Shown: positions 1 to 18,990 of the stretch, in pieces
How the letters are laid out: each line of letters opens with the position of its first letter
How positions within the stretch are numbered: position 1 is the first letter of the stretch
Assembly: GCA_017613435.1 (NCBI GenBank)
Contig: JAGADU010000091.1
Location: 1-32,975, forward strand
From: Lachnospiraceae bacterium
GTDB taxonomy: Bacteria; Bacillota; Clostridia; Lachnospirales; Lachnospiraceae
Length of the DNA stretch: 32,975 nt
Reading direction: 5' to 3'
The notes under the pieces: model-generated
Database searches by the model: none
What the model was told of the DNA's origin: nothing
What the model saw: the letters and a program-made list of their open reading frames with translations, nothing else
Program-made: the position numbers and the translations under genes

Positions 1-666
1 GGTACCGCCGGGTTCGGTCACTTTTACTTCCACTCCACTAACAGGATTGCTGTCCTGATCGATAACCTTAATGTCCAAAGCACCTTTATGAGGCAACTCT
101 CTGATCTGTTCCTCGTGGCTGCTTACAGTATCAGCAGTTACTGTTACTGTCTTATCTCCTGCGGTTACGAGTTCATATCCATCGGGCGCGGTTACACTGA
201 TTGTATATGTACCAAGTTCGGCTGTGTAATCACTGCCGCTCTTGGAATACTCTGTAACTTTACCGTCTGCATTTGTTGTGTATGTCTTCTCTGTGCCGCT
301 GGGTTCAGTTACTTTTACTGTAACTCCGCTTACGGGATTACTATCCTGATCTACAACTTTTATATCAAGTGCTCCCTTGGGTATACGAACTATCTGCTCC
401 ACATGGCTTGTAACATTATTCTCTGTTACATTTACCGTCTTTTCTCCTGCAGTAGCAAGTTCATATCCGTCCGGTGCTGTTACCTGAATTGTATAGGATC
501 CTACTATGGTGGAATATTCACCGTTTGAGCCGCGGGAATATTTCGTCACTTTACCGTCGGAGTCCGTAGTATAGGTTTTCACATTTCCATTGGTTTCGGT
601 AACCTTTACCGTAACTCCGCCAACAGGATTATTATCCTGATCTATGACTTTAATATCCAACGCTCC
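1..666 (-). repeat. Tandem 291-bp coding repeats in the adhesin
   Basis: Repeat units begin (in the minus sense) at 666, 375 and 84, two exact steps of 291 bp (97 codons). The first two units are complete and the third is cut by the window end. Units share GALDIKV, a DQD.NPV stretch, VKVTE, YTIxVTAPDGYE and a TAG(E/D)KTV end. The constant unit length and near-identical wording suggest recent duplication and possible copy-number variation between strains. Confidence 0.85.
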
Positions 667-2358
667 GGTAGGATCATACTTGTTGAAAAACGTTCCCAAG
701 TCAAAATCCGACGCATGCATAAGAACATTTTCGTGATTTTTGTATACAGTCTTGGCATTATCACCCAAATACGTAATATGAGTTACCGTATAAATATACG
801 ATCCGGCATCGTTTTCAACATGAAGCTTAATTGTAATATATCCGTCAGAATTAGTAATATTTCCTTTCGTAATTCCTGCATCGACCTCACTTATCTTATA
901 ATAGAAATCCTTCTGACTTCCTCTGGGTACATAATAAGGAGAATTTGATTTTGAACTTTCTTCAAAAAATGTAAATGAAGGAAAATCAACCTTACTTGTC
1001 GATGAATTGTTTGCATACCATACTTCTTCGGTAGGTATCATAAACTCCGAATCTTCCATTCGGGTTATACCGAATGTATATTCATTAGGCTGAATATCAA
1101 CTGTTAAATCTTTTTGAGTATTAATTCCATCCCATTCATGTGTAACACCCTTAATCAACGAAAAATGCATCTGATTAGGTCCATCGGTAGTAACCTGCTG
1201 GTCACCGCCTCTGTATATATAATGCCATTCTGCTTCATTTTTAGCTTCATCGGCAACTACCCAGCCTGCGGAACCTCCTCCGTTTTGGCTGAATACTACT
1301 TTTTTGCTGTAAGGTGCCAAAAAAACACCTGCAGACCCGGAGATTGTTACTTTTCCCTGAGTCCTCAAGTTCCAAATGACTTTCTGGCATATTTCCTTGT
1401 CAACATTGGTTATTGTCTGATTTCCCGAACCCTCATTTCCTGACCAATATGTACTGGAAGTAATTGTTTTATATGATCCCGAAGGCTGTTTGACCTTAAC
1501 TACGATTTTTTCTATCGTTACGGAATCCGATGTACCTTTTACGGATCCGTCAGAACCGCTGTAATTAAATATAACTACCGTTGATGAATTCTTTTTTATG
1601 GTTATTCCCGAACTTGCAGCCATGCAGCGTTTCAAATCGCTGTCAACATCTATATAAACTACTTTGTCCTCAAATTCATCATCACTTAAATCGATAACAA
1701 CCTGGTTTGAAGAAGTAAATGTTGCATACTGCTTATACTTCAGATAATAATCCGAGTTTTTGGCTTTAGCGGAAATATTATCCGATTCCGTTTTGATTCT
1801 GTCCATAAAATCGGACATCCACTGTGATACATTTGATTTTTCGTTTACCACAATTTGAGGTGAACTGGCAAAAAATGCGGTATCCAATTTAAAATGTGAA
1901 GTCTGATTGGAACTTGGAGTATAATTGTGATTGGAAAACTCGTTATACAACGAAGGGCTTAAATCGAATTTAAAAGTTCCGGCTGTATTTTTGGAAAGGC
2001 GCATTTGTGTCGTTATTTCGCCTATCAGGAAATGAGCTGTGCTTCCATTTTGAATAAAGTCTACATCATTATTACGTACTTCTCCGCCGACCGTTCTGTT
2101 GTTGACAAATTTATTTACGGCCATCGTAGTTTCCATATGTTCATTCTGAGTAAACACATTTGCTATAACGCCGAAATCAACCGCCTGATTCAGAATCGTA
2201 TTGTAATTCATCTGTGCCTTGCTTTCCATTATGGCAGGTTTTTCCTTTGGATCTGCCGCCTTGGCGCGAAAGCTGACTGTCTCAAAGACAGACGGAAAAA
2301 TCAAAACGCCCGAAAGAATTAATGTTGCCACCCTTTTCAGTAATTTGTTGTTTTTCAT
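1..2358 (-). CDS. Secreted surface adhesin with Cna-B/SpaA-like repeats (3' end off window)
   Basis: Open from ATG 2358 to the window edge (786 codons, no stop), so the C terminus and any sorting signal are missing. Residues 1-34 look like a signal peptide: basic start, hydrophobic stretch, then an AKA-A cleavage site. The region around residues 45-80 (DFGVIANVF, then TTMAVNKF) resembles the choice-of-anchor A / putative adhesive domain of Gram-positive surface proteins. From residue 565 a Cna-B/SpaA-like domain repeats with an exact 97-residue period (starts 565, 662, 759), each copy opening GALDIKV and carrying APDGYE. Such domains form stalks, often locked by Lys-Asn isopeptide bonds; the Lys in GALDIKV is a candidate. 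The class B sortase gene lies 71 bp upstream, so this is probably its substrate (inference). An AGGA site lies 11 bases before the ATG. The ligand cannot be read from sequence. Confidence 0.85.
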   Translation of the reverse strand, partial: MKNNKLLKRVATLILSGVLIFPSVFETVSFRAKAADPKEKPAIMESKAQMNYNTILNQAVDFGVIANVFTQNEHMETTMAVNKFVNNRTVGGEVRNNDVDFIQNGSTAHFLIGEITTQMRLSKNTAGTFKFDLSPSLYNEFSNHNYTPSSNQTSHFKLDTAFFASSPQIVVNEKSNVSQWMSDFMDRIKTESDNISAKAKNSDYYLKYKQYATFTSSNQVVIDLSDDEFEDKVVYIDVDSDLKRCMAASSGITIKKNSSTVVIFNYSGSDGSVKGTSDSVTIEKIVVKVKQPSGSYKTITSSTYWSGNEGSGNQTITNVDKEICQKVIWNLRTQGKVTISGSAGVFLAPYSKKVVFSQNGGGSAGWVVADEAKNEAEWHYIYRGGDQQVTTDGPNQMHFSLIKGVTHEWDGINTQKDLTVDIQPNEYTFGITRMEDSEFMIPTEEVWYANNSSTSKVDFPSFTFFEESSKSNSPYYVPRGSQKDFYYKISEVDAGITKGNITNSDGYITIKLHVENDAGSYIYTVTHITYLGDNAKTVYKNHENVLMHASDFDLGTFFNKYDPTGALDIKVIDQDNNPVGGVTVKVTETNGNVKTYTTDSDGKVTKYSRGSNGEYSTIVGSYTIQVTAPDGYELATAGEKTVNVTENNVTSHVEQIVRIPKGALDIKVVDQDSNPVSGVTVKVTEPSGTEKTYTTNADGKVTEYSKSGSDYTAELGTYTISVTAPDGYELVTAGDKTVTVTADTVSSHEEQIRELPHKGALDIKVIDQDSNPVSGVEVKVTEPGGT

Positions 2359-2429
2359 TGTTTTGCCGTTCCTTTTACTTATTTTTCTTCAACGAAAAAA
2401 AACTTAAACACATTTCTGCATTTAACTCC

Positions 2430-3311
2430 CTACCTGATTTCGGAGATTAAATAATCACCGATTTCTTTTGCTACTGCCACCACTCTGGTTGAGTTGGTAT
2501 TACAAGTCGACAATACCAGTAGCTCATCATTTTCAGTAATTTTCTCGTTGGAAAAATAAGCTTTTTCATCCCCAAACGCTTTGATTTTCTCCAGCAGTTC
2601 TTTTCCGGCATTTTCGGTAAAGCCTTTGAAAACGTAAAGGTTATCCGAACCCATTTCCAAGCTTTGGCTCAGAACATGTTCATCGGAATAATAAGAACAG
2701 CATACTATCGAGTATACTTTTATTGAATCAGAAGTATATAGATATATCTTCTTATGAGATTCCAAAAATTCGTGATCCCTGTGCATTTTATGCAAACTTC
2801 CGAACATGGTTCCGTTTTTCATATTATGACCGTACACTACCGTTATCAAGTCATTGAAATCGGAATTCACATAATTTTCGACATATATGCATCCGGGATA
2901 TCCTGTACTGTTGTCAATGTTATGTTTTAAGTAATAATTGTCACTGTCTTCTTTTTTTAAAATCGGATAATCAATTTGAGTATCCGGTATAAAAATATAT
3001 GCTATAACATCAGAATTAATATTCTTGTATGCATCAATAGTTATAACACCGGGAAAATCAGATGGCAACTCTTTTTTTTCGGAAAAATCTTTTTTTCCCA
3101 AAGAACTGTCTTTATCGGAAGCATTTCTTTTATTATCCGCATTATTATTTAAGTTACTCCATGCTTCTTCTTTTATTGCTTCATAATAATCCTGTTGTTT
3201 CGCATTTTTCTTGTGATATTTTATCATGTAAGCAGCGAAAATAACCGTGATTATTACCGCAAGTTCAAAAAATATAACAAGTCCGGGATATTTTTTTATT
3301 ATCTTCCGCAT
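2430..3311 (-). CDS. srtB: Class B sortase
   Basis: This 293-residue transpeptidase would cleave a sorting signal and attach a surface protein to peptidoglycan or to another pilin. Residues 9-31 are a single N-terminal membrane segment, followed by a polar linker to about residue 85 and then the sortase domain. The catalytic triad is visible: His162 in VVYGHNM, Cys270 in LSTC and Arg276 in NSTRVV. The helical insertion between the His and Cys motifs and the YGHNMKNGTMF wording are typical of class B. A GGAAG ribosome site sits 7 bases before ATG 3311. It follows murA after 48 bp and precedes the adhesin by 71 bp, making that adhesin the likely substrate. The family assignment is secure, the substrate pairing is inference. 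Confidence 0.92.
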   Translation of the reverse strand: MRKIIKKYPGLVIFFELAVIITVIFAAYMIKYHKKNAKQQDYYEAIKEEAWSNLNNNADNKRNASDKDSSLGKKDFSEKKELPSDFPGVITIDAYKNINSDVIAYIFIPDTQIDYPILKKEDSDNYYLKHNIDNSTGYPGCIYVENYVNSDFNDLITVVYGHNMKNGTMFGSLHKMHRDHEFLESHKKIYLYTSDSIKVYSIVCCSYYSDEHVLSQSLEMGSDNLYVFKGFTENAGKELLEKIKAFGDEKAYFSNEKITENDELLVLSTCNTNSTRVVAVAKEIGDYLISEIR

Positions 3312-7717: not shown

Positions 7718-9628
7718 CTATACTCTCTGTGCCTTCATGAGACGCTTGTTTTCATACATTCTGTCGTCAGCTTTTTTGAATATCGTTTCGATGTCGTCGT
7801 ATTCGATTTCTTCGAAATCCGCCATACCCGAAGCGACCGATACCTTGCTTAAATCGGGAATGGGTTCGTTTTGGAGTCTGGCGACTTCGCTTCTGAATTT
7901 CTCAAGCAGTTCGTATCTCTCGTCGTAATCGGAATTCTTGACGATGGCTACAAATTCGTCGCCGCCGACTCTGAATACCGGCGAATGCTTGAATGTATTG
8001 CATATAAGTTCGCTGGAGTTCTTGATATAAATATCTCCGGCGCCGTGTCCGTATGCGTCATTGATCTTTTTAAGATTGTTAAGGTCAAACATAACGGCAG
8101 CAAATCTTGTTCCGTCCTGTGCAAGATAACGGCTCTTTAATTTGCTCTTTTCGTTCTCGTACGCGGTTCTGTTCTTAAGCGAAGTAAGCGCATCCGTCTG
8201 CATGAGTTCCGACAGTTTGTCGTTTAATGCGGTTAACCTGATATTTGTCTTGTAATGCGAAAGCGACTGCGTGATGCAGGATTCGTATTCCCAGTAAACC
8301 CAGTCTCTCACGCCGGACTCGGTATAAACCATGACAAAGTATCCGACTACGAATGAATCGATAAACAAGGGCATGAGGAAATAAATCTCTCCTTCCTCGG
8401 TGCCGTTGTATTCGGGAATAACCTGTTTTTTGGGCATCATGTAATCCGTTTTGATGCCTACGCCGTTCTTTCTGGCCACAACAACCTGCATCTTGTCGGA
8501 ATATTTGGCTACGGGCAGTTTCTCGACTTCTTCATGGGCGATTCTCTCAATCATGGGATCGATCATAATGTAAACCGTCTGAATGTCGGGATGTCCGGTC
8601 TGATATATTGCTTCGCGAAGTTTTTCGGGAAGAGTGGAGAAGCGGCTCGATTCCTGGAAAGCGGCTCTTATGTCGTAAATAAGACCCTTTCTGGTTGCCG
8701 TTTCGTATTGCTTGCCTATGAGGGCGTGGCAGAACAGTCTTCTCATTTCGTCCTCGTTTCTGGGATTCTCGCATCCGCAGCTTTCGCCGGGTTTGAATTC
8801 GCCGTCGATATAGCTTTCTCTCGGAACTTCTTTATTGTCAAACAAGTCAAGCGCAAGCTGAATGCAGAGCATGCCGATTTTGTCATAACGCTGATCGATG
8901 GTCGCAATCGAAGGGAAATATGTCTGTCCGGCTTTTACAAAATCGAAGCCCGTAACCAGAACGTCTCTCGGGCATTCTATTCCCCACTGTTCAAGTGCCA
9001 TCGTGGAAGAAATCGCAAGAAAGTCGTTTGCGAAAATCATTGCATCGGGAAGACTTTCTTTGGTCGTATATTTGTGATGAATGATATCCATTGCGATATC
9101 GGATTCCCAATCCGTATAATATATTTCGTCTTCGGGCAAAACAAAATCTTCATGTTCTTCGGCAAATTCTTTGACTGCCTGAAGTCTCTTGTTGGAATCG
9201 CCGTTGTCTGCGGGTCCCCCGAAAAATACAACCTTACGGACATTGTGCTTGCTGTAAAGATGCTCGCAAAGTTCCTTCATTGCCACACCGTTCTTTACAA
9301 GAATACCGTAAAATCCGGGATGGTTGTCTCCTATACAGATTGTGAGAATTCCCGCCTTTTCGCAATTTTCGTATATTTTTTCTCTTATGGCGGAACTGTT
9401 CAATCCCTGCGAGAAGACTATCGCAAGATCGAAGTCATTCAAATCAGGGAATTCATGAATGGACATTTCGCTTATGTTATTGCTTTCGGGTCTGCCGTAG
9501 GAATTGGCCGCAAGGAAAAAGAAGGTATCTATCGCTTTACCTTTAACCGCCTCGGTATACCCTTTGAGGAAGGATGACAAAATGTCATTACTCCAACTGT
9601 TTGCAAATATCGCTATTTTTTTGTTCAT
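7718..9628 (-). CDS. Diguanylate cyclase with LacI-type sugar-sensor domain
   Basis: A 636-residue cytoplasmic protein, without membrane segment or signal peptide. Residues 1-280 match the ligand-binding fold of LacI-family regulators (AMIFANDFLAISS, DVLVTGFD, PSIATIDQ) but the DNA-binding HTH is absent. A CGC motif follows at about 284-286, then a mixed region to about 475 that could be GAF-like, then a GGDEF domain with an intact RVGGDEF motif (GGDEF at 555-559). It should convert two GTP into cyclic di-GMP under control of a small ligand, perhaps a sugar. The RxxD inhibitory site expected just before GGDEF is not there, suggesting no product feedback. A longer reading from TTG 9694 overlaps the upstream gene; ATG 9628 has GGGAGG 10 bases before it and was chosen. 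Confidence 0.9.
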   Translation of the reverse strand: MNKKIAIFANSWSNDILSSFLKGYTEAVKGKAIDTFFFLAANSYGRPESNNISEMSIHEFPDLNDFDLAIVFSQGLNSSAIREKIYENCEKAGILTICIGDNHPGFYGILVKNGVAMKELCEHLYSKHNVRKVVFFGGPADNGDSNKRLQAVKEFAEEHEDFVLPEDEIYYTDWESDIAMDIIHHKYTTKESLPDAMIFANDFLAISSTMALEQWGIECPRDVLVTGFDFVKAGQTYFPSIATIDQRYDKIGMLCIQLALDLFDNKEVPRESYIDGEFKPGESCGCENPRNEDEMRRLFCHALIGKQYETATRKGLIYDIRAAFQESSRFSTLPEKLREAIYQTGHPDIQTVYIMIDPMIERIAHEEVEKLPVAKYSDKMQVVVARKNGVGIKTDYMMPKKQVIPEYNGTEEGEIYFLMPLFIDSFVVGYFVMVYTESGVRDWVYWEYESCITQSLSHYKTNIRLTALNDKLSELMQTDALTSLKNRTAYENEKSKLKSRYLAQDGTRFAAVMFDLNNLKKINDAYGHGAGDIYIKNSSELICNTFKHSPVFRVGGDEFVAIVKNSDYDERYELLEKFRSEVARLQNEPIPDLSKVSVASGMADFEEIEYDDIETIFKKADDRMYENKRLMKAQRV

Positions 9629-9668
9629 ACTGTTTCGGCCTCCCGAATTGCCCCTTTGCTGTATAAAA

Positions 9669-10874
9669 TCAATCAAAATAACCCCTGTACTCAACTTTTA
9701 TGTCGGAACCGGGAAATAAATGATTGTACAATTCCACAAAATAATCATCCGTCATACTCGCCAAGAAGTCAACCACCATTTCTTCAAAACTTTCGTCACG
9801 GTAACTCCCGATTCGTCTGTACGGCTTTGTAATCTTTTCAATGTAACTTAAATGATGCCTGTAAAATACGGTATCCTCGCTGCCCGACTTGGCTTCTTTT
9901 AACAGTTCGTCATAAAGTTCGTCGAACATCGGATAAATTTTTTCTTTATACACACTTTCTATTTTATCACTTAAATAGATTTTTTGGTAATTTTCTTTTT
10001 TTGCTTTTGAAAAACTATCAAAATAATCGTCATCCATCGCGATAAAATCCCTGCCGTAGCTGTTTTCGATGATGTTTACGATCATGTTGTTGATAATCTC
10101 GGCATTGGTCTTTCCTATGACTTCCGAACCGAATTCGCTCTCCGATTCGATAAAGCCGAGTTTGACGGCATCCTGACGGTCCTTGCCAAGATACGCGATA
10201 ATGTCGGACACTCTCACGACGCATCCTTCGAGCGTTGCGGGAACAAGTGTCTTGATGAAAGCGCTGTTTTCATAGCTTTTCATCATTTTATCGTCAAATA
10301 TTTTAAAATCTTTATACGGAACGGGCTGATATTTTTTGCATTCGAATTCACCGTTGTGGCAAATTATTCCGTCAAGAGTCTGAAGACTCAAATTCAGAGG
10401 AAATACGGTATTCAAAACCCTCGCGGAATGAATGTTGTGATTAAAGTGTTTGCCCGTAGCCCCATAAAGAATTTCGTCGAGTTTTCTTTCTCCCGCATGA
10501 CCGAACGGAGTGTGTCCGATATCGTGTCCGAGAGCCGCCGCCTCTATAAGATCGCAGTTCAAATTCAGCACGCTTCCGATATTTCTGGCAATTCTTGCCA
10601 CGAACTGAACATGGGTGGCACGCCTTGAAACATCGTCGTTTTTGCAAAGGGAAAATACCTGCGTCTTATCCATGTATCTTGCATAATAAGGGCAGTGCAT
10701 GATTTTTTCGCAGTCTCTGACAAAAGCCGGGCGCCAGAGATTCGCCCTGTCATGGTCCATCTCACGTCTTATCGCATCTTCATCCCTGAAAGCGTAAGGA
10801 TTGACTTTGCCGCAAGCTCTGTCTTCGCGAATTCTTTTTTGTAATTCTTCACTGAGATTATGATAAATTGCCAT
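9669..10874 (-). CDS. dgt: dGTPase-like HD-domain deoxynucleotide triphosphohydrolase
   Basis: A 401-residue HD-superfamily enzyme that in this family hydrolyses dGTP or other dNTPs to the nucleoside and tripolyphosphate. The N-terminal block RPAFVRDCEKIMH ... DKTQVF is the dGTPase signature. Metal-binding residues are visible: His88 in RATHVQ, His117-Asp118 in ALGHDIGHTPFGHAGE, and the later Asp in VRVSDIIAYLGKD. It starts 35 bp after the PlsR-like gene and ends 40 bp before the cyclase. Family members differ in substrate, so dGTP specificity is not proven. ATG 10874 is preceded by an AAAGAGGAA site. Confidence 0.88.
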   Translation of the reverse strand: MAIYHNLSEELQKRIREDRACGKVNPYAFRDEDAIRREMDHDRANLWRPAFVRDCEKIMHCPYYARYMDKTQVFSLCKNDDVSRRATHVQFVARIARNIGSVLNLNCDLIEAAALGHDIGHTPFGHAGERKLDEILYGATGKHFNHNIHSARVLNTVFPLNLSLQTLDGIICHNGEFECKKYQPVPYKDFKIFDDKMMKSYENSAFIKTLVPATLEGCVVRVSDIIAYLGKDRQDAVKLGFIESESEFGSEVIGKTNAEIINNMIVNIIENSYGRDFIAMDDDYFDSFSKAKKENYQKIYLSDKIESVYKEKIYPMFDELYDELLKEAKSGSEDTVFYRHHLSYIEKITKPYRRIGSYRDESFEEMVVDFLASMTDDYFVELYNHLFPGSDIKVEYRGYFD

Positions 10875-10909: not shown

Positions 10910-12196
10910 TTATTCCTCTTTGCCGCTCTCAAGGTTTTCCCTTGCCACGGCAAGCATCAGTTTGATACGGTTTTCCTGATTGACCCTGGTCGCACCCGGA
11001 TCGTATTCGATATCGACCGAATTGATTTTGGGATTGATGCGTCTGACTTTGTTGAGCATGCCTTTTACCGCAACATGGCAGGGAAGACATCCGAAAGGCT
11101 GAACGCAGATGATATTCTCGTATCCGTGTTCCGCAAGTTCAAGCATCTCCGCAGCCAGATACCATCCTTCTCCCATGCTGTTGACGGTGTCTATGATACC
11201 CTTTGCTCTTTTCTTTAAATCCGTAACTCTCTCGGGAGCCGTAAACTGCGGCCATTTTTCGATACCCGAAATGAGAAGGTCTTCGATAAAGAAATAATAT
11301 TTCATTACGATTTCCATAATGATTCTCTTTAAAGGCTTACCCCCGTATGTGCGAAGGTCTTCGAGCGCTCCGTTGGTTTTGTATGCGCCGAATCCGAGAA
11401 CCGTCGGAATCAGATATTCGCAGTCCTGCTCGGTTAAGAATTCTTCGAGATGGTTGTTTCCGGGTACCGAGTATTTAAGATAAAGTTCGCCGATTACGGC
11501 AACTTTTACTTTGGGCACCTTTTTGATCTCAATTTCGGAAAAGGTACGGCATATTTCATCGACGGTTTTTTTCATCGCCGAAACGCTGAAATTCTTTCCT
11601 TTCGAGAATTTCTTTCCGAGTTTCTCTATCCAGTCGTTCAAAAGAGCATCGGTGGCTCCTTTTTCGACTTCGTAGGGTCTGACCTGATTTGACACAAGAT
11701 TGAGAGCATCGCCGTAAACAAGTGCCGCCGCCGCGGAACACAAAGTCAGGGGCGAGAGAAAAATACCCGGAGCGTATTCCATATTCCATGTGTTTGCGGA
11801 AATAAAAGGAACATTGGGATATCCCGCTCTCTCAAATGCTTTACGCATGAGGTTGATATAGTTCGAATCCCTGCATCCGCCGCCCGACTGCGTGATAATC
11901 ATCGCAACCTTGTCGGGATCGTATTTGCCGCTCTCCATGGTCGCAAGCATCTGACCCGTTATGAGCGAACAGGGATAACAGATATCGTTATGAACATATT
12001 TAAGACCCTTTTGAATAACATCCGGACCTTCGTTTTCCATGATGTCAACTTTGTATCCGACTCTTTGGAATACAGGACGTAAAAGCCTGAAATGAATCGG
12101 ACACATCATCGGAGAAAGAATCGTATAATCTTTCTTCATCTTTTTGGAAAACATTATTTTTTTGACGAAATGAGGACTTTGACCGTTATTGCTCAT
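10910..12196 (-). CDS. plsR: BCR/HAD-type reductase subunit, plasmalogen synthase partner (PlsR-like)
   Basis: This 428-residue protein resembles the 2-hydroxyacyl-CoA dehydratase / DUF2229-linked C-terminal part of the roughly 1400-residue activase-related proteins of anaerobes. It has conserved cysteines in MMCPIH, NDICYPCSL, GGGCRDSN and FGCLPCH that suit [4Fe-4S] binding. In Clostridium perfringens a two-gene pls operon of BCR/HAD-type proteins makes plasmalogens by reducing a phospholipid ester; the arrangement here matches that organisation (established family knowledge, assignment inferred). ATG 12196 shares one base with the TGA stop of the upstream gene, with AAGGAGG just before it, so translation is probably coupled. 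A longer in-frame start at 12313 lies inside the upstream gene and was rejected. A dehydratase for another acyl-CoA remains possible. Confidence 0.75.
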   Translation of the reverse strand: MSNNGQSPHFVKKIMFSKKMKKDYTILSPMMCPIHFRLLRPVFQRVGYKVDIMENEGPDVIQKGLKYVHNDICYPCSLITGQMLATMESGKYDPDKVAMIITQSGGGCRDSNYINLMRKAFERAGYPNVPFISANTWNMEYAPGIFLSPLTLCSAAAALVYGDALNLVSNQVRPYEVEKGATDALLNDWIEKLGKKFSKGKNFSVSAMKKTVDEICRTFSEIEIKKVPKVKVAVIGELYLKYSVPGNNHLEEFLTEQDCEYLIPTVLGFGAYKTNGALEDLRTYGGKPLKRIIMEIVMKYYFFIEDLLISGIEKWPQFTAPERVTDLKKRAKGIIDTVNSMGEGWYLAAEMLELAEHGYENIICVQPFGCLPCHVAVKGMLNKVRRINPKINSVDIEYDPGATRVNQENRIKLMLAVARENLESGKEE

Positions 12197-15100
12197 CACT
12201 TGCCCTCCTTTGCGGATTCTATTGCGGCAATAAGACTTCTTAATCTTATTTTGACCGCTCCGAGGTTTGTAACCTCGTCTATCTTGATCTGAGTGTAAAG
12301 TTTTCCCCTGCACTCAAGTATTTCTCTTACCTCATCGGTTGTAAGCGCATCGAGACCGCAGCCGAAAGATACGAGGTGAACCATGTAAAAGCCGTCGTTT
12401 TCGGCAACATATTTTGCCGCAGAAAACAGTCTTTGATGGAAAGTCCACTGGGCAATAATATTCGTATTGAATTTTGCGACTTTATAAGACACGCAGTCTT
12501 CCGTTACGACCGCAAAACCGAGTCCAGCGATAAGTTTGTGAATACCGTGATTGACTTCGGGATCGGCATGGTAAGGTCTGCCCGCAAGAAGAATTATTTT
12601 CTTGTTTTCTTCTTTGGCTCTCTTTATGATTTCATCGCCCTTGGCCCTTACTTTCGAAACATAATTTCCGTATTCGGCATATGCCGCGTTGCAGGCTTTT
12701 TTTATCTCACCCGACGAAAAAGCCGTATTTAATCTGTTTTCAAGAATGGCTTTAATCTTTTCGGGGAATCTGCTCTTTACGTGAGGTCCGACATAATCGG
12801 ATATATAAACGATATTTCCGAAATTGACCGTATTTGCCCCGATTACTTCGGGATAGCCCGAAATTACCGCGCAGTTATAGTTCTTTCTGCCCTTTCGCTC
12901 GTCGAAATGATAAGTCATTCCGGGATAGAAAATGACATCGACACCCATATCAATCAGTGTCTGAATATGACCGTGCATCATTTTCGCGGGGAAGCAGACG
13001 GTGTCGGAGGGAATCGTTCCCTGACCTTTGATATACATCGCTCTGTTTGAAAAACCGGAAGTTTTAACGGTGTATCCGAGCGATTTGAAAAATGCGTACC
13101 AGAAAGGAAGCATTTCATACATATTCATGGCAAGAGGAATGCCGATGACTTTGTTTCTGTCCGATTTATCGGACATGTCATTCTTTTTTGTCACTACTTC
13201 GGAATCGGTTGTTTCCGAAGCGTTTTTCGTTTCGTCTTTTACGTCCGAATATTCCTTAAGCAGGGAAATTTTGTATTCGTACATATTTAACGAATCGTCC
13301 TGCGCTTTTTTCGTTACGGGTTTTTCGCATCTGTTTCCGCCGATGAATTTTCTGCCTCCGCTGAACGTGTTTACTGTAAGCTGGCAGTGATTGTTGCATC
13401 CGTTGCAGGTGACGGATTTAACGTCATACGAGAATGTTTTTAATTCCTCGTCCGAAATGACGCCTTCGTAATCCTTATCGTGCGAGCCGCCTTTTCTCAA
13501 ATACAGTTCTTTGGCGTACAAAGCCGCACCGTATGCGCCCATCATACCCGCAATATCGGGTCTTATGACATTTACGCCCATTTCTTTTTCAAATGCGCGA
13601 AGAACGGCATTGTTTAAGAAGGTTCCGCCCTGTACGACAATTTTTTTGCCGAGCTCGTCCGCGGAATGAACACGGATAACTTTGTAAAGTGCGTTTTTGA
13701 TAACGCTTATCGACAAGCCTGCTGATATGTTTTCAACAGTTACGCCCTCTTTTTGAGCCTGTTTTACGGACGAATTCATAAATACCGTACATCTTGAGCC
13801 GAGATCCACGGGATTGTCTCCGAAAAGGCCGAGATTGGCGAATTCCTCGATTCCGTAGCCCATCGAAGAAGCAAATGTCTGAAGGAACGAACCGCAACCC
13901 GAAGAGCATGCTTCGTTAAGGAAAATATTGTCGATTGCACCGTTTCTGATTTTGAAGCATTTCATGTCCTGTCCGCCGATATCGATAATGAATTCGACAT
14001 CCGGAAGGAAGAATTTGGCCGCGGTAAAATGCGCTACGGTTTCGACTACACCGTATTCGATATTGAGCGCGGCTTTTATCATATCTTCGCCGTAACCCGT
14101 AACGGCACTTGATGCGATATGTGCCTTGGGATAGCGCGAATACATTTCTTTTAAGGAATCAACGACAACGTCTATGGGTTTACCCTGATTTGATTCGTAT
14201 CTAGAATAAAGTATTTCGCCCTTGTCGTTTGTAAGGATAACTTTGAGTGTCGTCGAGCCGGAATCTATGCCGAGGAAAGCCTCGCCTTCATAGGCGCTTC
14301 CCTCTATTCTCTCGACTCTGTCTTTTGCATGTCTTTCGACAAATTCGTTGTATTCGTCATTGTTTTTAAACAAAGGTTCAAGCGAGGAAATTCTGATTGA
14401 ATCCTTCGATTCGGTGATTATCTGCAAAGCCTTGTTAAGATCTACGGCATCGGATGCATACAAAGCCGCACCCATGGCAACAAAAAGAAGGGAATCCTCG
14501 GGACAGGTTCCTTCGCATTTAAGCGCTTTGTCAAACGCAAGTCTTAATTCCGACATGAAAGTAAGCGGGCCGCCGAGATATACGATTTTGCCCTCGATGG
14601 GATGGCCCTGAGCCAGACCCGTAATCGTCTGGTTTACGATGGCTGCGTAAATACTTGCGGAAATATCCTCTTTTCTGGCTCCCTGGTTTAAAAGGGGCTG
14701 AATGTCGGTTTTCGCAAATACACCGCATCTTGAAGCAATCGGATAGATTTTTTGAGCGTCTTTTGCAAGCTCGTTCATCTCATCCGCCGATACCTGCATA
14801 AGAGAAGCCATCTGATCCGCAAAAGCACCCGTACCGCCGGCACAGGTTCCGTTCATTCTGACTTCGAGATTGCCGTTTAAGAAAAGAATTTTGGCGTCTT
14901 CGCCGCCGAGTTCTATAACCACATCCGTATCGGGAAGCTTCTTCGAAATGGCAACTTTTGTCGCATACACTTCCTGCACGAAAGGAATACCCGCCTTTTC
15001 GGCAAGTCCCATTCCCGCGGATCCCGATATCGCACATACCACAGGTTCCTTAATCTCGAATTTGTCGATTAAGCCTTTTAATACTTCTTTGGTTTTTTCG

Positions 15101-15207
15101 GTTATGAGCGTAAAATGGCGCTCATAACTTTTGTGTATTAAATTTCCCTCATCATCGAACACCACGGACTTTATGGTCGTGGATCCGATGTCAATTCCTA
15201 TTTTCAC
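12196..15207 (-). CDS. plsA: Large BCR/HAD activase with two ASKHA domains, plasmalogen synthase (PlsA-like)
   Basis: A 1003-residue protein with two BadF/BadG/HgdC-type ATPase domains (about 1-255 and 310-565). Each opens with a phosphate-binding loop (GIDIGSTT, GIDSGSTT) and carries cysteines for a shared [4Fe-4S] cluster (Cys122 and Cys161; Cys434 and Cys473). A cysteine cluster at 601, 604, 608 and 627 and a DUF2229-like region (about 685-1000) follow. Such proteins use ATP to push low-potential electrons into a dehydratase/reductase partner, here the next gene. The two-gene arrangement matches the anaerobic plasmalogen synthase of C. perfringens, which reduces an sn-1 ester to a vinyl ether. 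Start is GTG 15207, with GAGG 7 bases upstream. Generic acyl-CoA dehydratase activation is the alternative. Confidence 0.78.
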   Translation of the reverse strand: MKIGIDIGSTTIKSVVFDDEGNLIHKSYERHFTLITEKTKEVLKGLIDKFEIKEPVVCAISGSAGMGLAEKAGIPFVQEVYATKVAISKKLPDTDVVIELGGEDAKILFLNGNLEVRMNGTCAGGTGAFADQMASLMQVSADEMNELAKDAQKIYPIASRCGVFAKTDIQPLLNQGARKEDISASIYAAIVNQTITGLAQGHPIEGKIVYLGGPLTFMSELRLAFDKALKCEGTCPEDSLLFVAMGAALYASDAVDLNKALQIITESKDSIRISSLEPLFKNNDEYNEFVERHAKDRVERIEGSAYEGEAFLGIDSGSTTLKVILTNDKGEILYSRYESNQGKPIDVVVDSLKEMYSRYPKAHIASSAVTGYGEDMIKAALNIEYGVVETVAHFTAAKFFLPDVEFIIDIGGQDMKCFKIRNGAIDNIFLNEACSSGCGSFLQTFASSMGYGIEEFANLGLFGDNPVDLGSRCTVFMNSSVKQAQKEGVTVENISAGLSISVIKNALYKVIRVHSADELGKKIVVQGGTFLNNAVLRAFEKEMGVNVIRPDIAGMMGAYGAALYAKELYLRKGGSHDKDYEGVISDEELKTFSYDVKSVTCNGCNNHCQLTVNTFSGGRKFIGGNRCEKPVTKKAQDDSLNMYEYKISLLKEYSDVKDETKNASETTDSEVVTKKNDMSDKSDRNKVIGIPLAMNMYEMLPFWYAFFKSLGYTVKTSGFSNRAMYIKGQGTIPSDTVCFPAKMMHGHIQTLIDMGVDVIFYPGMTYHFDERKGRKNYNCAVISGYPEVIGANTVNFGNIVYISDYVGPHVKSRFPEKIKAILENRLNTAFSSGEIKKACNAAYAEYGNYVSKVRAKGDEIIKRAKEENKKIILLAGRPYHADPEVNHGIHKLIAGLGFAVVTEDCVSYKVAKFNTNIIAQWTFHQRLFSAAKYVAENDGFYMVHLVSFGCGLDALTTDEVREILECRGKLYTQIKIDEVTNLGAVKIRLRSLIAAIESAKEGK

Positions 15208-15246
15208 GATAACGCCTCAAAATATTTTTACACTTAAAGTGTTTTA

Positions 15247-18186
15247 TTACATAAATCTCTTTAAATACTTCAGATAATGGAAACCGATATTCGACCATTT
15301 GAATCCAAGAGACGCCAATACGCCGCTTGTATAGGAGTTGCTTATCGGTATGTTCCTCGATTTGGAAGCAATCGAACTGTAGAAGGAAAGGACCGCAACA
15401 TCCTTGTCCGTGATCTTCTCACGAACCAGTTTGTCGAAGATTTCCCTCGGTACGCTCTTACACTTAAAAAGCAATTTGTTAGCAAGCTTTTCAATGGTGA
15501 ACAAATGAGGATTGTACAAATGATAAATATTGTTGATCCTGTTATGCAAAACGAGTTTTACATATGCGTTTGCGCACTCGTCCACAGCCGTGAAATCCAT
15601 CGGGAATTCCGCGATTTCGGGGCTGTATAAACCTGCTTTGAAAAGGCCTCTTGCCCTTCCGATAAATCCGTTGTCGTCGGCATTCTTTTGGAACATTCCG
15701 TCCGACATTCTCCAGGTCAGATTGCCTATTCTGTAAATATTTACTTTAAGGCCGGCTTCTCTTGCAAGAAGAACGGCTTCCTCTGCTTTGTATTTGGAAT
15801 GAATATAAACGTTTTGTACGTATTTCTGGCCGATATCGAGCACAAATTCATCAAATACCCTGTCGGTCTTCGGAATGGATACCGTACCCACGCCGTTTAC
15901 GGATGCGGTCGATGTGTAATGAAGAACCGCTCTCGCATCCTTACAGAAATTGATTACGTTCTGCGTGCCCCATACGTTCGTTCTTTCGAAATCCTCGTAA
16001 TGACCCGCATGATGAACGTTTGCGGCGGTATGAATTACCGTATCGACTTTTCTGACAAGTATCGAATATTCGACATCGCTTAAACCGAAATGTTCGGCTT
16101 CGATATCACCTTTTACAACCTTGTAATTGAGGAATTTGTATTCCTTGGGGAAGTAACGTCCGAGCGTCTGTCTTAATCTCTCTTCGTTTCTTACAAGGCA
16201 TACGACCTTGACTTTGTTTCTTAACAATTCCCTTAAAATATGTGCACCCAAAAAGCCGGTCGCACCGGTTAGGAATACGCATTTATGCGGATTCTTGTAT
16301 AATACGTTCGAATTCTTTAAAATAATCGAATTGACATCGACTTTGTTTTCTTCTTCGATGAATTCGTTATTGCCTGCCATGTATTTCGCAAGCGATTCAA
16401 CTGTCGGATATTCATAAATTTCCTGAGCGTTGACGCCGATGATTGCGGCAAGTTCGAATGCCGAAAGCGAATCTCCTCCCAGATCGAAGAAATCATCGTA
16501 TATTCCGACTCTTTTTGTAAGTATCTGTTCAAACGCTTCCACGAGTTTTTCCTCTGTGGAATTGGTGGGAGCAACGTATTTGACTTCGTTTTTCTCAAGC
16601 TGGTTTTTAACCATGTCCATGAGTTCGTGGCGCTTGATTTTTAAAGTCGTGGTTCTGGGAAAATCTCTGTGAGTGAAACTTATGAAAGTAATCTTTTTGT
16701 ACGAAGGAAGCGCCTCGTTCATTTTCTTTATGGCAGATTCGATTGCTTTCTTTTTGTCTTTGTCTCCGGGGTTTTCCGGAAGAACAAGCGCGCAGATTCT
16801 GCCTTTGTCGCCGTATACAAATGCGGATTTCACTCCCTCGATAACATTGATTTTTTCTTCGAGTTCTTCGGGATAAATATTTTTGCCGTTGTCAAGAATA
16901 ATGACATTCTTGCTTCTTCCGGTAATAAATACGAATCCGTCCTCGTCGATATATCCGAGATCTCCGGTATAAAACCATCCGTCTTTAATGACTTCGTCGG
17001 TTGCGGCCCGGTTCTTGTAATATCCGAGCATGACAACATCGCCCTTGACGGCTATTTCGCCGTTAACGGTTTTGACTTCCACATGGTGAGGTTTGCCGAC
17101 GGATCCTATTTTGCCTTCAGCGGGGCAGTTTGCGCATACCAGGGGTGCGCATTCGGTTAAGCCGTAGCCCTGGAAAACATTGATTCCGAATACCGCAAAG
17201 CACTCGACGATTTCGGGACGAAGAGCCGCTCCGCCGACTACGACGTTGCAAAGGTTTCCGCCGAATTTATCAAGCAGGGATTTGAATATCGAACGACGTG
17301 CGTCCATTCCGACAAGCTTTGCTGCTTTGACAATGTTTTTGCCGCTTTTGATTTTTCTTGCGGTTTTGGGATCCGATGTCGCATCTTTTATTTTTTTGTA
17401 AAACGCCTCGGCAATCGCCGGAACGATCAATATAACCGAAGGTTTGAAAAGGTTCATGTTTGCCGCGATATTTTCGATGCTGTCGTTGATGCAAATGGTC
17501 GCACCGTAGCATAAAATACCGAGATTGTCCACGGTAAGTTCGAAAGTATGATGAACCGGAAGTACGCTTAATACAACTTTGGGACCCGGAACATTGGATG
17601 CGAAATCAAGGCGGTGAATTTCTTTCAGGTTGCAGATGATGTTTTTCTGGGAAATCATTACGCCCTTGCTAACACCGGTAGTACCGGATGTGAAAAGGAT
17701 CTCACAAAGTCCTTCGGGATCGGTATCAGGAAGCGTGACTTCTTTTGTATTAAACAATTCCCTGTATTCTTTTGCGGACATATCGTAAATGTCTTTTACG
17801 GCTTTGATGTTTTTCTTTGCTTCAACGGCGGTATCCTCAAATTCGCCGTCATAAAGAATGCAGGAGATGTCTCCCGCTTCGAAGAGATACATCATCTCTT
17901 TTTTAAGAAGCATTTTATCAATGGGAACAACTATGTTTCCGCTTATTACAACAGCAAGAAAAGACACAATCCATTCATAGCTTGTGCCGCCCAAAATTGC
18001 GATATGTTCCGAAGAATATCCTTTATTCGCGAATGCCGAAGCAAGTGCGAAAACATCTTTTTTTAATTGGCCGTAAGACCTGTCTTCGATGTTTTCGTCG
18101 CGAAAAAAACGATAAGCGGTGTTTTCGGAATATTTACCGCCGACATCTTCAACGAATTCTTTTATGGAATTGAAATTATCATTCAT
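15247..18186 (-). CDS. Free-standing A-T-R enzyme (carboxylic-acid-reductase-like)
   Basis: A 979-residue, three-part enzyme. The adenylation domain (about 1-535) is closest in wording to long-chain acyl-CoA synthetases (ILFTSGTTGVSKG near 164, YGLTE near 341, YTGDLG near 406). A carrier domain (about 545-605) has the phosphopantetheine serine Ser573 in DLGGDSLS. A thioester-reductase domain (about 633-979) shows the NAD(P)H loop TGATGFLG near 640 and a YxxxK pair at Tyr794/Lys798. It should activate a carboxylic acid, load it on the carrier and release an aldehyde or alcohol. There is no condensation domain, so it is not a peptide synthetase. It sits 39 bp before the PlsA-like gene and 12 bp after the amidohydrolase. 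ATG 18186 (AAGGG upstream) is preferred over in-frame TTG 18195. No phosphopantetheinyl transferase gene is in the window. Substrate unknown; a fatty acid is plausible. Confidence 0.88.
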   Translation of the reverse strand: MNDNFNSIKEFVEDVGGKYSENTAYRFFRDENIEDRSYGQLKKDVFALASAFANKGYSSEHIAILGGTSYEWIVSFLAVVISGNIVVPIDKMLLKKEMMYLFEAGDISCILYDGEFEDTAVEAKKNIKAVKDIYDMSAKEYRELFNTKEVTLPDTDPEGLCEILFTSGTTGVSKGVMISQKNIICNLKEIHRLDFASNVPGPKVVLSVLPVHHTFELTVDNLGILCYGATICINDSIENIAANMNLFKPSVILIVPAIAEAFYKKIKDATSDPKTARKIKSGKNIVKAAKLVGMDARRSIFKSLLDKFGGNLCNVVVGGAALRPEIVECFAVFGINVFQGYGLTECAPLVCANCPAEGKIGSVGKPHHVEVKTVNGEIAVKGDVVMLGYYKNRAATDEVIKDGWFYTGDLGYIDEDGFVFITGRSKNVIILDNGKNIYPEELEEKINVIEGVKSAFVYGDKGRICALVLPENPGDKDKKKAIESAIKKMNEALPSYKKITFISFTHRDFPRTTTLKIKRHELMDMVKNQLEKNEVKYVAPTNSTEEKLVEAFEQILTKRVGIYDDFFDLGGDSLSAFELAAIIGVNAQEIYEYPTVESLAKYMAGNNEFIEEENKVDVNSIILKNSNVLYKNPHKCVFLTGATGFLGAHILRELLRNKVKVVCLVRNEERLRQTLGRYFPKEYKFLNYKVVKGDIEAEHFGLSDVEYSILVRKVDTVIHTAANVHHAGHYEDFERTNVWGTQNVINFCKDARAVLHYTSTASVNGVGTVSIPKTDRVFDEFVLDIGQKYVQNVYIHSKYKAEEAVLLAREAGLKVNIYRIGNLTWRMSDGMFQKNADDNGFIGRARGLFKAGLYSPEIAEFPMDFTAVDECANAYVKLVLHNRINNIYHLYNPHLFTIEKLANKLLFKCKSVPREIFDKLVREKITDKDVAVLSFYSSIASKSRNIPISNSYTSGVLASLGFKWSNIGFHYLKYLKRFM

Positions 18187-18198
18187 ACTTTTCAACCC

Positions 18199-18990
18199 TT
18201 ACGCTTCAAGATTAAACACTCTCTCAAAATTCTTGTGAAGAATCATTTCTCTTACATCGTCCGAAAGATTGAGTTTCATAAATCTCTCGTATTCTTTCTT
18301 CGGATTCCACATCGGGAAATCGCTTCCGAAGAAGAATCTGTCGGGACCGAAATGATCGATAAATCTTTCGGCCGTTGCATTGTCTATCATAAACAGCGAA
18401 CTGGAAGTATCATAGTAAACATTGTCAAGTCGGGGATTGTGGAAGGAATCCTTCCATCTTCTGTATCCTCCGAAATGAGCTCCGATAACTGTCAGACCGG
18501 GAAATGTTTTCGCAACCTTAACCATTTTTTCGGGTGCGGAAAAATCGTAACGATCGTCGCCCATATGAAATAAAACGGCGAGTCCTTCTTCTTCCATTGC
18601 TTTTAAAATCGGAAACATTTTCGGATCGTCAATGTCAAAACGCTGCATGTCGTTGTGGAATTTGACTCCGCGAAGTCCCATTTCCTTGGCACGTGAAAGC
18701 TCTTCCCTGAAATTGTCATAATCCTTGTGCATTGCTGCAAAGCCGATTAAATCGGGATGTTTTGCCACTTCATCGCCGATGAAATTGTTAATGCTTTCGA
18801 CCTGTGCGGGCGCAAGTGCCGACGAACAGACGAGAGCATGGGAAGCCCCGAGTTCTTCCTCGCATTTCAAAAGGCTGTCAACGGAAGCATCCGAGCTCAT
18901 GGAAATGCCGTAAAATTCGCCTATGGATTCCGAAGCCTTAAAAGCGATTTTGGCGGGAAAGATGTGCGCATGTGCATCTATGATTTTCAT
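18199..18990 (-). CDS. Amidohydrolase-2 family metal-dependent hydrolase
   Basis: A 263-residue TIM-barrel hydrolase or decarboxylase of the amidohydrolase 2 type. Metal and active-site residues are visible: His7 and His9 in DAHAHIF, His142 in FHMGD, His172 in GAHFGG and Asp224 in GSDFP. The substrate cannot be told from sequence; the family includes decarboxylases such as ACMSD relatives as well as hydrolases. Its ATG overlaps the lspA stop by 4 bases and its stop lies 12 bases before the A-T-R start, so it is firmly inside the operon. Confidence 0.88.
   Translation of the reverse strand: MKIIDAHAHIFPAKIAFKASESIGEFYGISMSSDASVDSLLKCEEELGASHALVCSSALAPAQVESINNFIGDEVAKHPDLIGFAAMHKDYDNFREELSRAKEMGLRGVKFHNDMQRFDIDDPKMFPILKAMEEEGLAVLFHMGDDRYDFSAPEKMVKVAKTFPGLTVIGAHFGGYRRWKDSFHNPRLDNVYYDTSSSLFMIDNATAERFIDHFGPDRFFFGSDFPMWNPKKEYERFMKLNLSDDVREMILHKNFERVFNLEA

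Follow-up and report, generated by a model that had tools for sequence, protein, structure and literature searches.

Our analysis identifies a discrete, co-inherited three-gene cassette of gut Clostridia, in which the gene for a stand-alone LACS-like adenylation-carrier-thioester reductase (ATR) is accompanied by genes for paralogues of PlsA and PlsR, the two halves of anaerobic plasmalogen synthase. The cassette lies in a 32,975-nucleotide stretch of DNA from a Lachnospiraceae bacterium (assembly GCA_017613435.1, contig JAGADU010000091.1), which we refer to as the window. Judging from sequence, we assign a probability of roughly 0.45 to a reading in which a long-chain aldehyde made by ATR would serve a specialised PlsAR pair in the synthesis of vinyl-ether or ether lipids. 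We found no published description of the unit in the titles and abstract openings of a literature largely without subscription journals. Beyond a preliminary description of the locus, the present work reveals an altered PlsR motif, an exchange of partners involving an iron alcohol dehydrogenase (Fe-ADH), and the status of the linked pair as an additional copy in a majority of the genomes examined.

Locus organization

The minus strand of the window shows the gene order asnA-lspA-amidohydrolase-ATR-PlsA-PlsR-dgt-GGDEF, where asnA and a few other short gene names are putative labels. The ATR gene (15247..18186) starts with an ATG at 18186, yielding a protein of 979 aa, or alternatively with a TTG at 18195 (982 aa). 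A gap of 39 bp (15208..15246, from the gene coordinates) separates it from the gene for the PlsA paralogue (12196..15207; 1003 aa), which uses a GTG at 15207 as its start codon. The gene for the PlsR paralogue (10910..12196; 428 aa) follows with an ATG at 12196 that overlaps the PlsA stop codon by one base (TGATG) and is preceded by GGAGGG. The coordinates thus agree with the preliminary description, which had placed ATR 39 bp upstream of the PlsA-like and PlsR-like genes on the same strand with no terminator in between. The terminator scan agrees as well, giving no minus-strand match inside the 39-bp gap; its 19 minus-strand matches across the region represent a modest excess over the 12.5 ± 3.4 expected by chance. 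Rfam and tRNA scans of the whole window returned no matches. Upstream of ATR, an Amidohydrolase_2 gene was recognized by domain scan (18199..18990, minus strand), which we judge from the neighbourhoods of its relatives to lie outside the unit.

Two further features of the window are worth recording. Just 3' of dgt (7718-9694), a periplasmic-binding-protein-like sensor region is fused to a GGDEF domain, and downstream of a sortase gene, a frame for a surface-protein-like product made of repeated modules runs off the end of the window (1-3311).

Properties of the ATR protein

The domain scan resolved ATR into AMP-binding, PP-binding and NAD_binding_4 domains, with no condensation domain. To assess its catalytic potential, we examined active-site residues of the ANL, carrier and SDR families, including, in the R domain, Ser/Tyr/Lys and the NAD(P)H-binding motif. 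Among the homologue rows reaching the respective site, the A-domain motifs are kept in 47/47, the carrier Ser in 46/46, the R-domain Ser in 43/43, and the R-domain Tyr and Lys in 44/44. With intact catalytic residues in its A, T and R domains, ATR would qualify as a carboxylate reductase of the A-T-R type. It falls outside the carboxylic acid reductase equivalog NF041592, for which it scored 155 bits at a cut-off of 1300.

By sequence, the PDB entry nearest to the R domain is the AusA reductase (4f6l), and further PDB matches of ATR include McyG, over the A-carrier stretch, and 4-coumarate ligases. Among the ligase models, the A domain scored best with long-chain-fatty-acid CoA ligases (244 bits, below the cut-off of 476). 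The substrate would be a carboxylic acid, most likely a long-chain fatty acid, although the score below cut-off and the matches to McyG and 4-coumarate ligases leave room for aryl acids. The product is probably an aldehyde, given the unchanged A, T and R motifs, the AusA-like R domain and the Fe-ADH neighbour of five of the 45 listed loci, all lacking the pls genes, against 0 in the other 40 stretches. At a separate locus (L195, 4907-10899), a relative of the ATR A domain adjoins a 1442-aa NRPS-like protein, whose C-terminal part aligns with the carrier-reductase half of ATR; this ligase and NRPS-like pair is a candidate lipopeptide-aldehyde pathway.

Conservation of the unit

Within a sample of 299 genomes from the same family, a nearly full-length ATR of at least 36% identity was detected in four (the window's own genome, G106, G089 and G278), and the match in a fifth (G054) spans positions 41-909 at 28% identity. 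PlsA homologues, counted at E<=1e-60, were present in 287 of the 299 genomes, so that PlsA is common and ATR rare. G106 carries ATR-PlsA-PlsR among different neighbours, and in G089, ATR is followed by PlsA at the contig end. The most distant ATR, that of G278 (36%), has neither pls genes nor Fe-ADH within the 14 kb examined, only 1.2 kb of which lie upstream. Samples of the order and the class, which overlap each other and the family sample, contained ATR (E<=1e-110) in 1 of 392 genomes (the window's own) and 2 of 391 genomes (the window's own and one A-domain-only match), respectively.

When one genome was scanned for each species, with 80 of 106 confirmed matches listed, 45 ATR loci were obtained (L091-L135, 47-88% identity; including G106 as L108 and G089 as L116); ligase-only matches (L136-L170) were excluded from all ATR counts. 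The contig ends inside ATR in four of these 45 (L124, L131, L134 and L135). PlsA lies directly 3' of ATR in 37 of the 41 listed loci whose contig continues, the exceptions being L103, L125, L126 and L127. The 37 comprise 35 loci with measured spacing, L116, in which only the N-terminus of PlsA (188 aa) precedes the contig end, and L100, in which PlsA is found on the other strand of an apparently inverted contig end. The spacing between ATR and PlsA ranges from 11 to 107 bp (median 18; 35 loci), and PlsR, with starts estimated from alignments, follows PlsA, overlapping with it, in all 32 listed loci where it is reached. A tblastn recheck without ORF filter reproduced which loci contain PlsA, PlsR and Fe-ADH and which lack them. 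The flanks of the unit vary: one group shares lspA-amidohydrolase-dgt, another has thioredoxin-type genes 3' of PlsR, and many loci stand alone. The association of ATR with the pls pair is thus conserved far past close relatives, as the preliminary description had envisaged.

The amidohydrolase, by contrast, did not hold up as the pathway member that had been suggested. It adjoins ATR in only 15 of the 45 listed loci, in 14 of which lspA is visible, while the fifteenth begins inside it. Moreover, G120, a genome from the window's genus, features an empty site, with the amidohydrolase gene and dgt 3 bp apart and none of the three genes in between. Since the amidohydrolase stays in place there and otherwise follows lspA synteny, we reject it as a unit member and regard it as a bystander. 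The same empty site indicates that ATR, PlsA and PlsR are present or absent as a block.

Two side observations concern the surroundings of the unit. In one clade (L106, L107, L108, L111 and L119), thioredoxin-like and thioredoxin-reductase-like genes lie 3' of PlsR, possibly as a supply of reductant or as a matter of plain synteny. Furthermore, the window's own assembly contains a second lspA-amidohydrolase-ATR arrangement (G000:C84:1-3374, L031) of ~78-80% identity, which is cut by the contig end after the first 686 aa of ATR; it probably stems from a sister species in the metagenome-assembled genome (MAG), or else from a duplication.

An alternative neighbour of ATR

In five of the 45 listed loci (L103, L125, L126, L127 and L135), ATR adjoins an Fe-ADH gene and lacks the pls pair, while Fe-ADH occurs in 0 of the other 40 within the stretch examined. 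These stretches extend at most 10 kb per side and are often shorter, so that a more distant Fe-ADH would be missed. The five Fe-ADH proteins are 53-83% identical to that of L125; their genes lie upstream of ATR in four loci and tail-to-tail with it in L103. L135 is counted here because it has Fe-ADH upstream and the only PlsA of its genome shows 49% identity. None of the five genomes contains an ATR-type PlsA, the copies found elsewhere in them being 42-49% identical. All NCBIfam matches of Fe-ADH (lactaldehyde reductase, ErcA and others) stayed below cut-off. An Fe-ADH of 26% identity is also present at L165, a ligase-only locus outside the 45. The presence of an alcohol/aldehyde dehydrogenase beside ATR is the strongest indirect indication that ATR releases an aldehyde.

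In the ATR tree, L103 falls inside the pls-linked clade, next to L101 (SH-aLRT 99), so that the partner was exchanged at least in this case, provided that the MAG is sound. The locus itself (L103:9995-14189) encodes an ATR 63% identical to that of the window, with a convergent Fe-ADH gene, in a MAG labelled Paludibacteraceae (Bacteroidota), reflecting either horizontal transfer or misbinning.

Placement of the PlsA and PlsR paralogues

The PlsA paralogue (reductase/dehydratase half 1) was assigned by domain scan and trees, and contains two ASKHA activase domains, matching BcrAD_BadFG, together with DUF2229. Window PlsR alone, the HGD-D-like second half, matched no family above cut-off and gave a weak DUF2229 signal; in L042, a fused homologue, HGD-D was matched by the PlsR half. 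The unit thus displays the PlsA/PlsR architecture of two activase domains, DUF2229 and an HGD-D-like partner, with the HGD-D match coming from L042 and not from window PlsR.

All three trees were quick searches with SH-aLRT support only. In an 89-row PlsA tree, from which duplicates, partial genes and L063 had been removed beforehand, the 33 ATR-linked rows (33/33) form one clade with SH-aLRT 100, with the fused and other split copies outside. A 46-row tree of chosen rows with named references, rooted by choice on Paraclostridium as a 28% homologue, places this clade inside the plasmalogen-synthase family, together with PlsA of plasmalogen-forming taxa: split copies such as those of Fusobacterium and Subdoligranulum lie on the ATR-linked side, and Listeria, Collinsella and Acetoanaerobium fall into the fused group. 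Single-domain dehydratase activators (4eht/1hux) match only the second ASKHA domain of the PlsA-like protein. The two-domain architecture, this restricted match and the tree position lead us to reject an identity as an acyl-CoA dehydratase activator of the HgdC type, and the activase pair groups with the PlsA family, as initially proposed. Neither of the two outcomes that the preliminary description had named as speaking against it, a neighbourhood confined to close relatives and an activase pair grouping with true acyl-CoA dehydratase activators, was thus obtained in the genome co-occurrence search and the activase grouping.

The groups in the ATR tree match those of the PlsA tree, although its root is unsure because it was placed on a very long branch (L034). 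Distances of ATR and linked PlsA correlate with r 0.94 (32 rows; reached in 0/999 permutations). A correlation is likewise seen between ATR and the other PlsA of the same genomes, a mix of fused and split forms (r 0.85, 21 rows; 0/999 permutations), so that part of the co-evolution signal reflects shared ancestry and vertical descent. The linked PlsA proteins are closer to each other than the other, fused copies in some pairs of genomes (L118-L108, 81 vs 61%; L121-L106, 84 vs 61%; L133-L111, 77 vs 63%) and no closer in others (L109-L114, 80 vs 81%; L109-window, 71 vs 72%). The former pairs hint at some horizontal movement, or at a slower change of the linked copy. Genome labels, including Oscillospiraceae, are the depositors' own.

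A second copy of PlsA accompanies the linked one in 31 of 40 genomes, as read by eye from a table with copies split over contigs counted once; the 40 are the 45 listed ATR genomes minus the five with Fe-ADH and include L124, L131 and L134, whose contigs end inside ATR. No other PlsA was found in the remaining 9 of the 40, nearly all of which are MAGs, so that the linked pair may also perform the ordinary reaction there. Additional family members were noted in passing: the other split PlsA-PlsR pair of the window's genome (L065:9478-14555, G000:C146) lies directly 3' of a patatin-like phospholipase gene, and PlsR-like proteins with no activase gene in view are encoded at L219:3807-5111 (G188) and, cut by the contig end, at L220:2323-3363 in the window's own genome.

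A modified motif in ATR-linked PlsR

The unit has kept 13 Cys residues of PlsA and three of PlsR (C73, C108 and C370) that are conserved in the family and are presumed to be Fe-S ligands. ATR-linked PlsR proteins, defined in the window by the motif C370-L-P-C373 and by D110, carry changes flanking two of these three residues, with C108-R-D110 in place of the C-R-A found elsewhere and C370-L-P-C373 in place of C-L-P-N; the per-position substitution counts exclude two divergent G311 rows. The sequence QPFGCLPC occurs in 32 of 33 ATR-linked PlsR proteins (31 of 32 rows plus G089), with CLPS in the remaining one. Position 373 is Asn in 56/56 other PlsR tree rows and 6/6 named references; in the seventh, Paraclostridium, the motif is not alignable. 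The 56 rows consist of 35 fused and 19 split copies that show CLPN, together with L192 and L203, which show CIAN; the latter motif in L203 was read from the alignment, the pattern search having caught another stretch. The family-type motif C-[LI]-[PA]-N, an observation of this analysis and not a published criterion, is absent from ATR-linked PlsR. CLPS is also found in L088 (G188:C11), a PlsR homologue without an activase. The C-L-P-C motif, which adjoins a predicted Fe-S ligand, thus appears near-diagnostic for ATR-linked PlsR. Comparisons with PDB sequences using window PlsR, a 46-row profile (one match, E 0.81) or a fused homologue returned nothing useful. With its altered PlsR motif and its usual status as a second copy, the linked PlsAR pair looks specialised.

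Possible function of the unit

Based on its motifs, ATR would convert an acid and ATP to an acyl-AMP and then to a thioester on its own carrier domain, from which the R domain may release a free aldehyde at the expense of NAD(P)H. In the weakest step of this scheme, the aldehyde would form a hemiacetal with the hydroxyl of a glycerolipid, which PlsAR would, most simply, dehydrate to a vinyl ether; further reduction could give an alkyl-ether lipid. The linked PlsAR pair may act in parallel to the other PlsA present in most of the same genomes. A more specific version, less probable than the general reading and offered tentatively, posits a second anaerobic route to vinyl or alkyl ethers that would start from free fatty acids and combine the ATR aldehyde with a redox-neutral hemiacetal dehydration, in place of ester reduction, by a PlsAR whose cluster site has been remodelled; Fe-ADH would send the same aldehyde to the alcohol in a sister lineage. 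The extra Cys373 could then provide the cluster with its fourth ligand or capture the aldehyde as a thiohemiacetal. As to the fate of a fatty alcohol, wax-ester synthases of the WS/DGAT family were found in 0/22 genomes, which shows little, because 14 control genomes were equally silent.

Alternatively, linked PlsAR may be an ordinary ester-reducing plasmalogen synthase, or an alkyl-ether former of the Ger type, with another lipid preference, beside which ATR acts on free fatty acids, for example by recycling acids or aldehydes from turnover, without feeding it directly. We consider this unlikely, albeit a serious contender. It would account for the retention of the family Cys residues and both activase domains and for the nine genomes in which the linked copy is the only PlsA found, and PlsA and Ger are not yet separable by sequence (PMC13274423). 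However, the nearly invariant, ATR-linked changes to C373 and D110, located beside two predicted cluster ligands of PlsR, argue for a joint, altered chemistry, as does the persistence of the ATR linkage across varied surroundings.

It is less probable still that the product of the unit is a small compound outside the membrane. In this case, PlsAR would reduce or dehydrate a fatty or aryl acyl group or aldehyde, carrier-bound or released, to an unsaturated or alcohol-type natural product, just as Fe-ADH would reduce it in the sister lineage. ATR is indeed NRPS-like: its carrier-reductase half resembles the terminal modules of NRPSs, and one relative of its ligase half lies beside an NRPS; Fe-ADH replaces PlsAR in some loci, and the distribution of ATR in the family is patchy. 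However, the characterised family members PlsA and Ger act on glycerolipids (PMC12838417; PMC13274423), and among the 22 largest neighbour clusters, part of them annotated, neither transporter nor condensation genes accompany the unit repeatedly except within groups of local synteny. A neighbourhood due to chance or position, with no functional link, would fit the lspA-region synteny of about a third of the listed loci (15/45), but is hardly credible in view of the gene order kept among unrelated flanks, the single PlsA clade, the matching ATR and PlsA trees, the G120 empty site and the distance correlation of r 0.94.

The formation of plasmalogens and alkyl-ether bonds in anaerobes is only now being clarified. 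The unit connects one clade of PlsA paralogues with a defined partner enzyme, with a PlsR motif that is near-diagnostic, and with an aldehyde as the predicted intermediate. Our findings suggest an undescribed, aldehyde-based synthesis of ether lipids in certain bacteria from the gut of grazing animals, making the unit a candidate source of rumen ether lipids. It may also provide a molecular test of the early finding that long-chain aldehydes are incorporated into plasmalogens by anaerobic bacteria; aldehydes, not alcohols, were reported to be used for this purpose (Goldfine and Hagen 1972, cited by PMC9702350).

Relation to known systems

ATR shares its A-T-R logic, the Ser/Tyr/Lys residues and the NAD(P)H-binding motif with carboxylic acid reductases (CAR) and with the terminal R domains of NRPSs such as AusA. 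Unlike CAR, whose NF041592 cut-off lies far above its score, it has a LACS-like A domain, and the search for a condensation domain found none. By description, it also resembles ElbD of Myxococcus, which comprises FAR-, ACS-, ACP- and acyltransferase-like domains and likewise combines acid activation, a carrier and a reduction within a single ether-lipid enzyme; in elbD mutants, an i15:0 aldehyde is missing (PMC9131029). Unlike ElbD, which is aerobic, works with CarF and has the order reductase-ligase-ACP-acyltransferase, ATR has no acyltransferase domain and carries its reductase at the C-terminus.

By description, the PlsA-like glycerol ester reductase Ger, which forms alkyl ethers, has two activase domains and belongs to the same family as the unit's PlsA (PMC13274423). 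Two activase domains are present in window PlsA and in all six homologues scanned, so that this feature is not diagnostic of Ger. The same source gives no agreed sequence signature for PlsA and Ger and describes extra PlsA homologues in Bacillota that lack a clear role (PMC13274423).

The closest known counterparts of the linked pair are the split PlsA-PlsR of Clostridium perfringens (CPE1194-1195) and the single-ORF forms of Enterococcus and other facultative anaerobes, with which it shares the order Act1-Act2-Red1 plus Red2 and the conserved Cys residues. The original plsA/plsR paper is reportedly that of Jackson et al. 2021. Window PlsA is ~46-52% and window PlsR ~35-42% identical to fused copies, with values of 46% and 35% for Listeria and 44% and 39% for Collinsella. 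For comparison, a recent study gives 48-55% (PlsA) and 41-42% (PlsR) identity between facultative-anaerobe homologues and C. perfringens, and treats both split and single-ORF forms as established plasmalogen synthases (PMC12838417). The known enzyme acts by ester reduction, turning an sn-1 ester into a vinyl ether. Unlike PlsA-PlsR proper, the pair in the unit is bound to an ATR gene, forms a separate clade, usually represents a second copy and has exchanged CLPN for CLPC and CRA for CRD.
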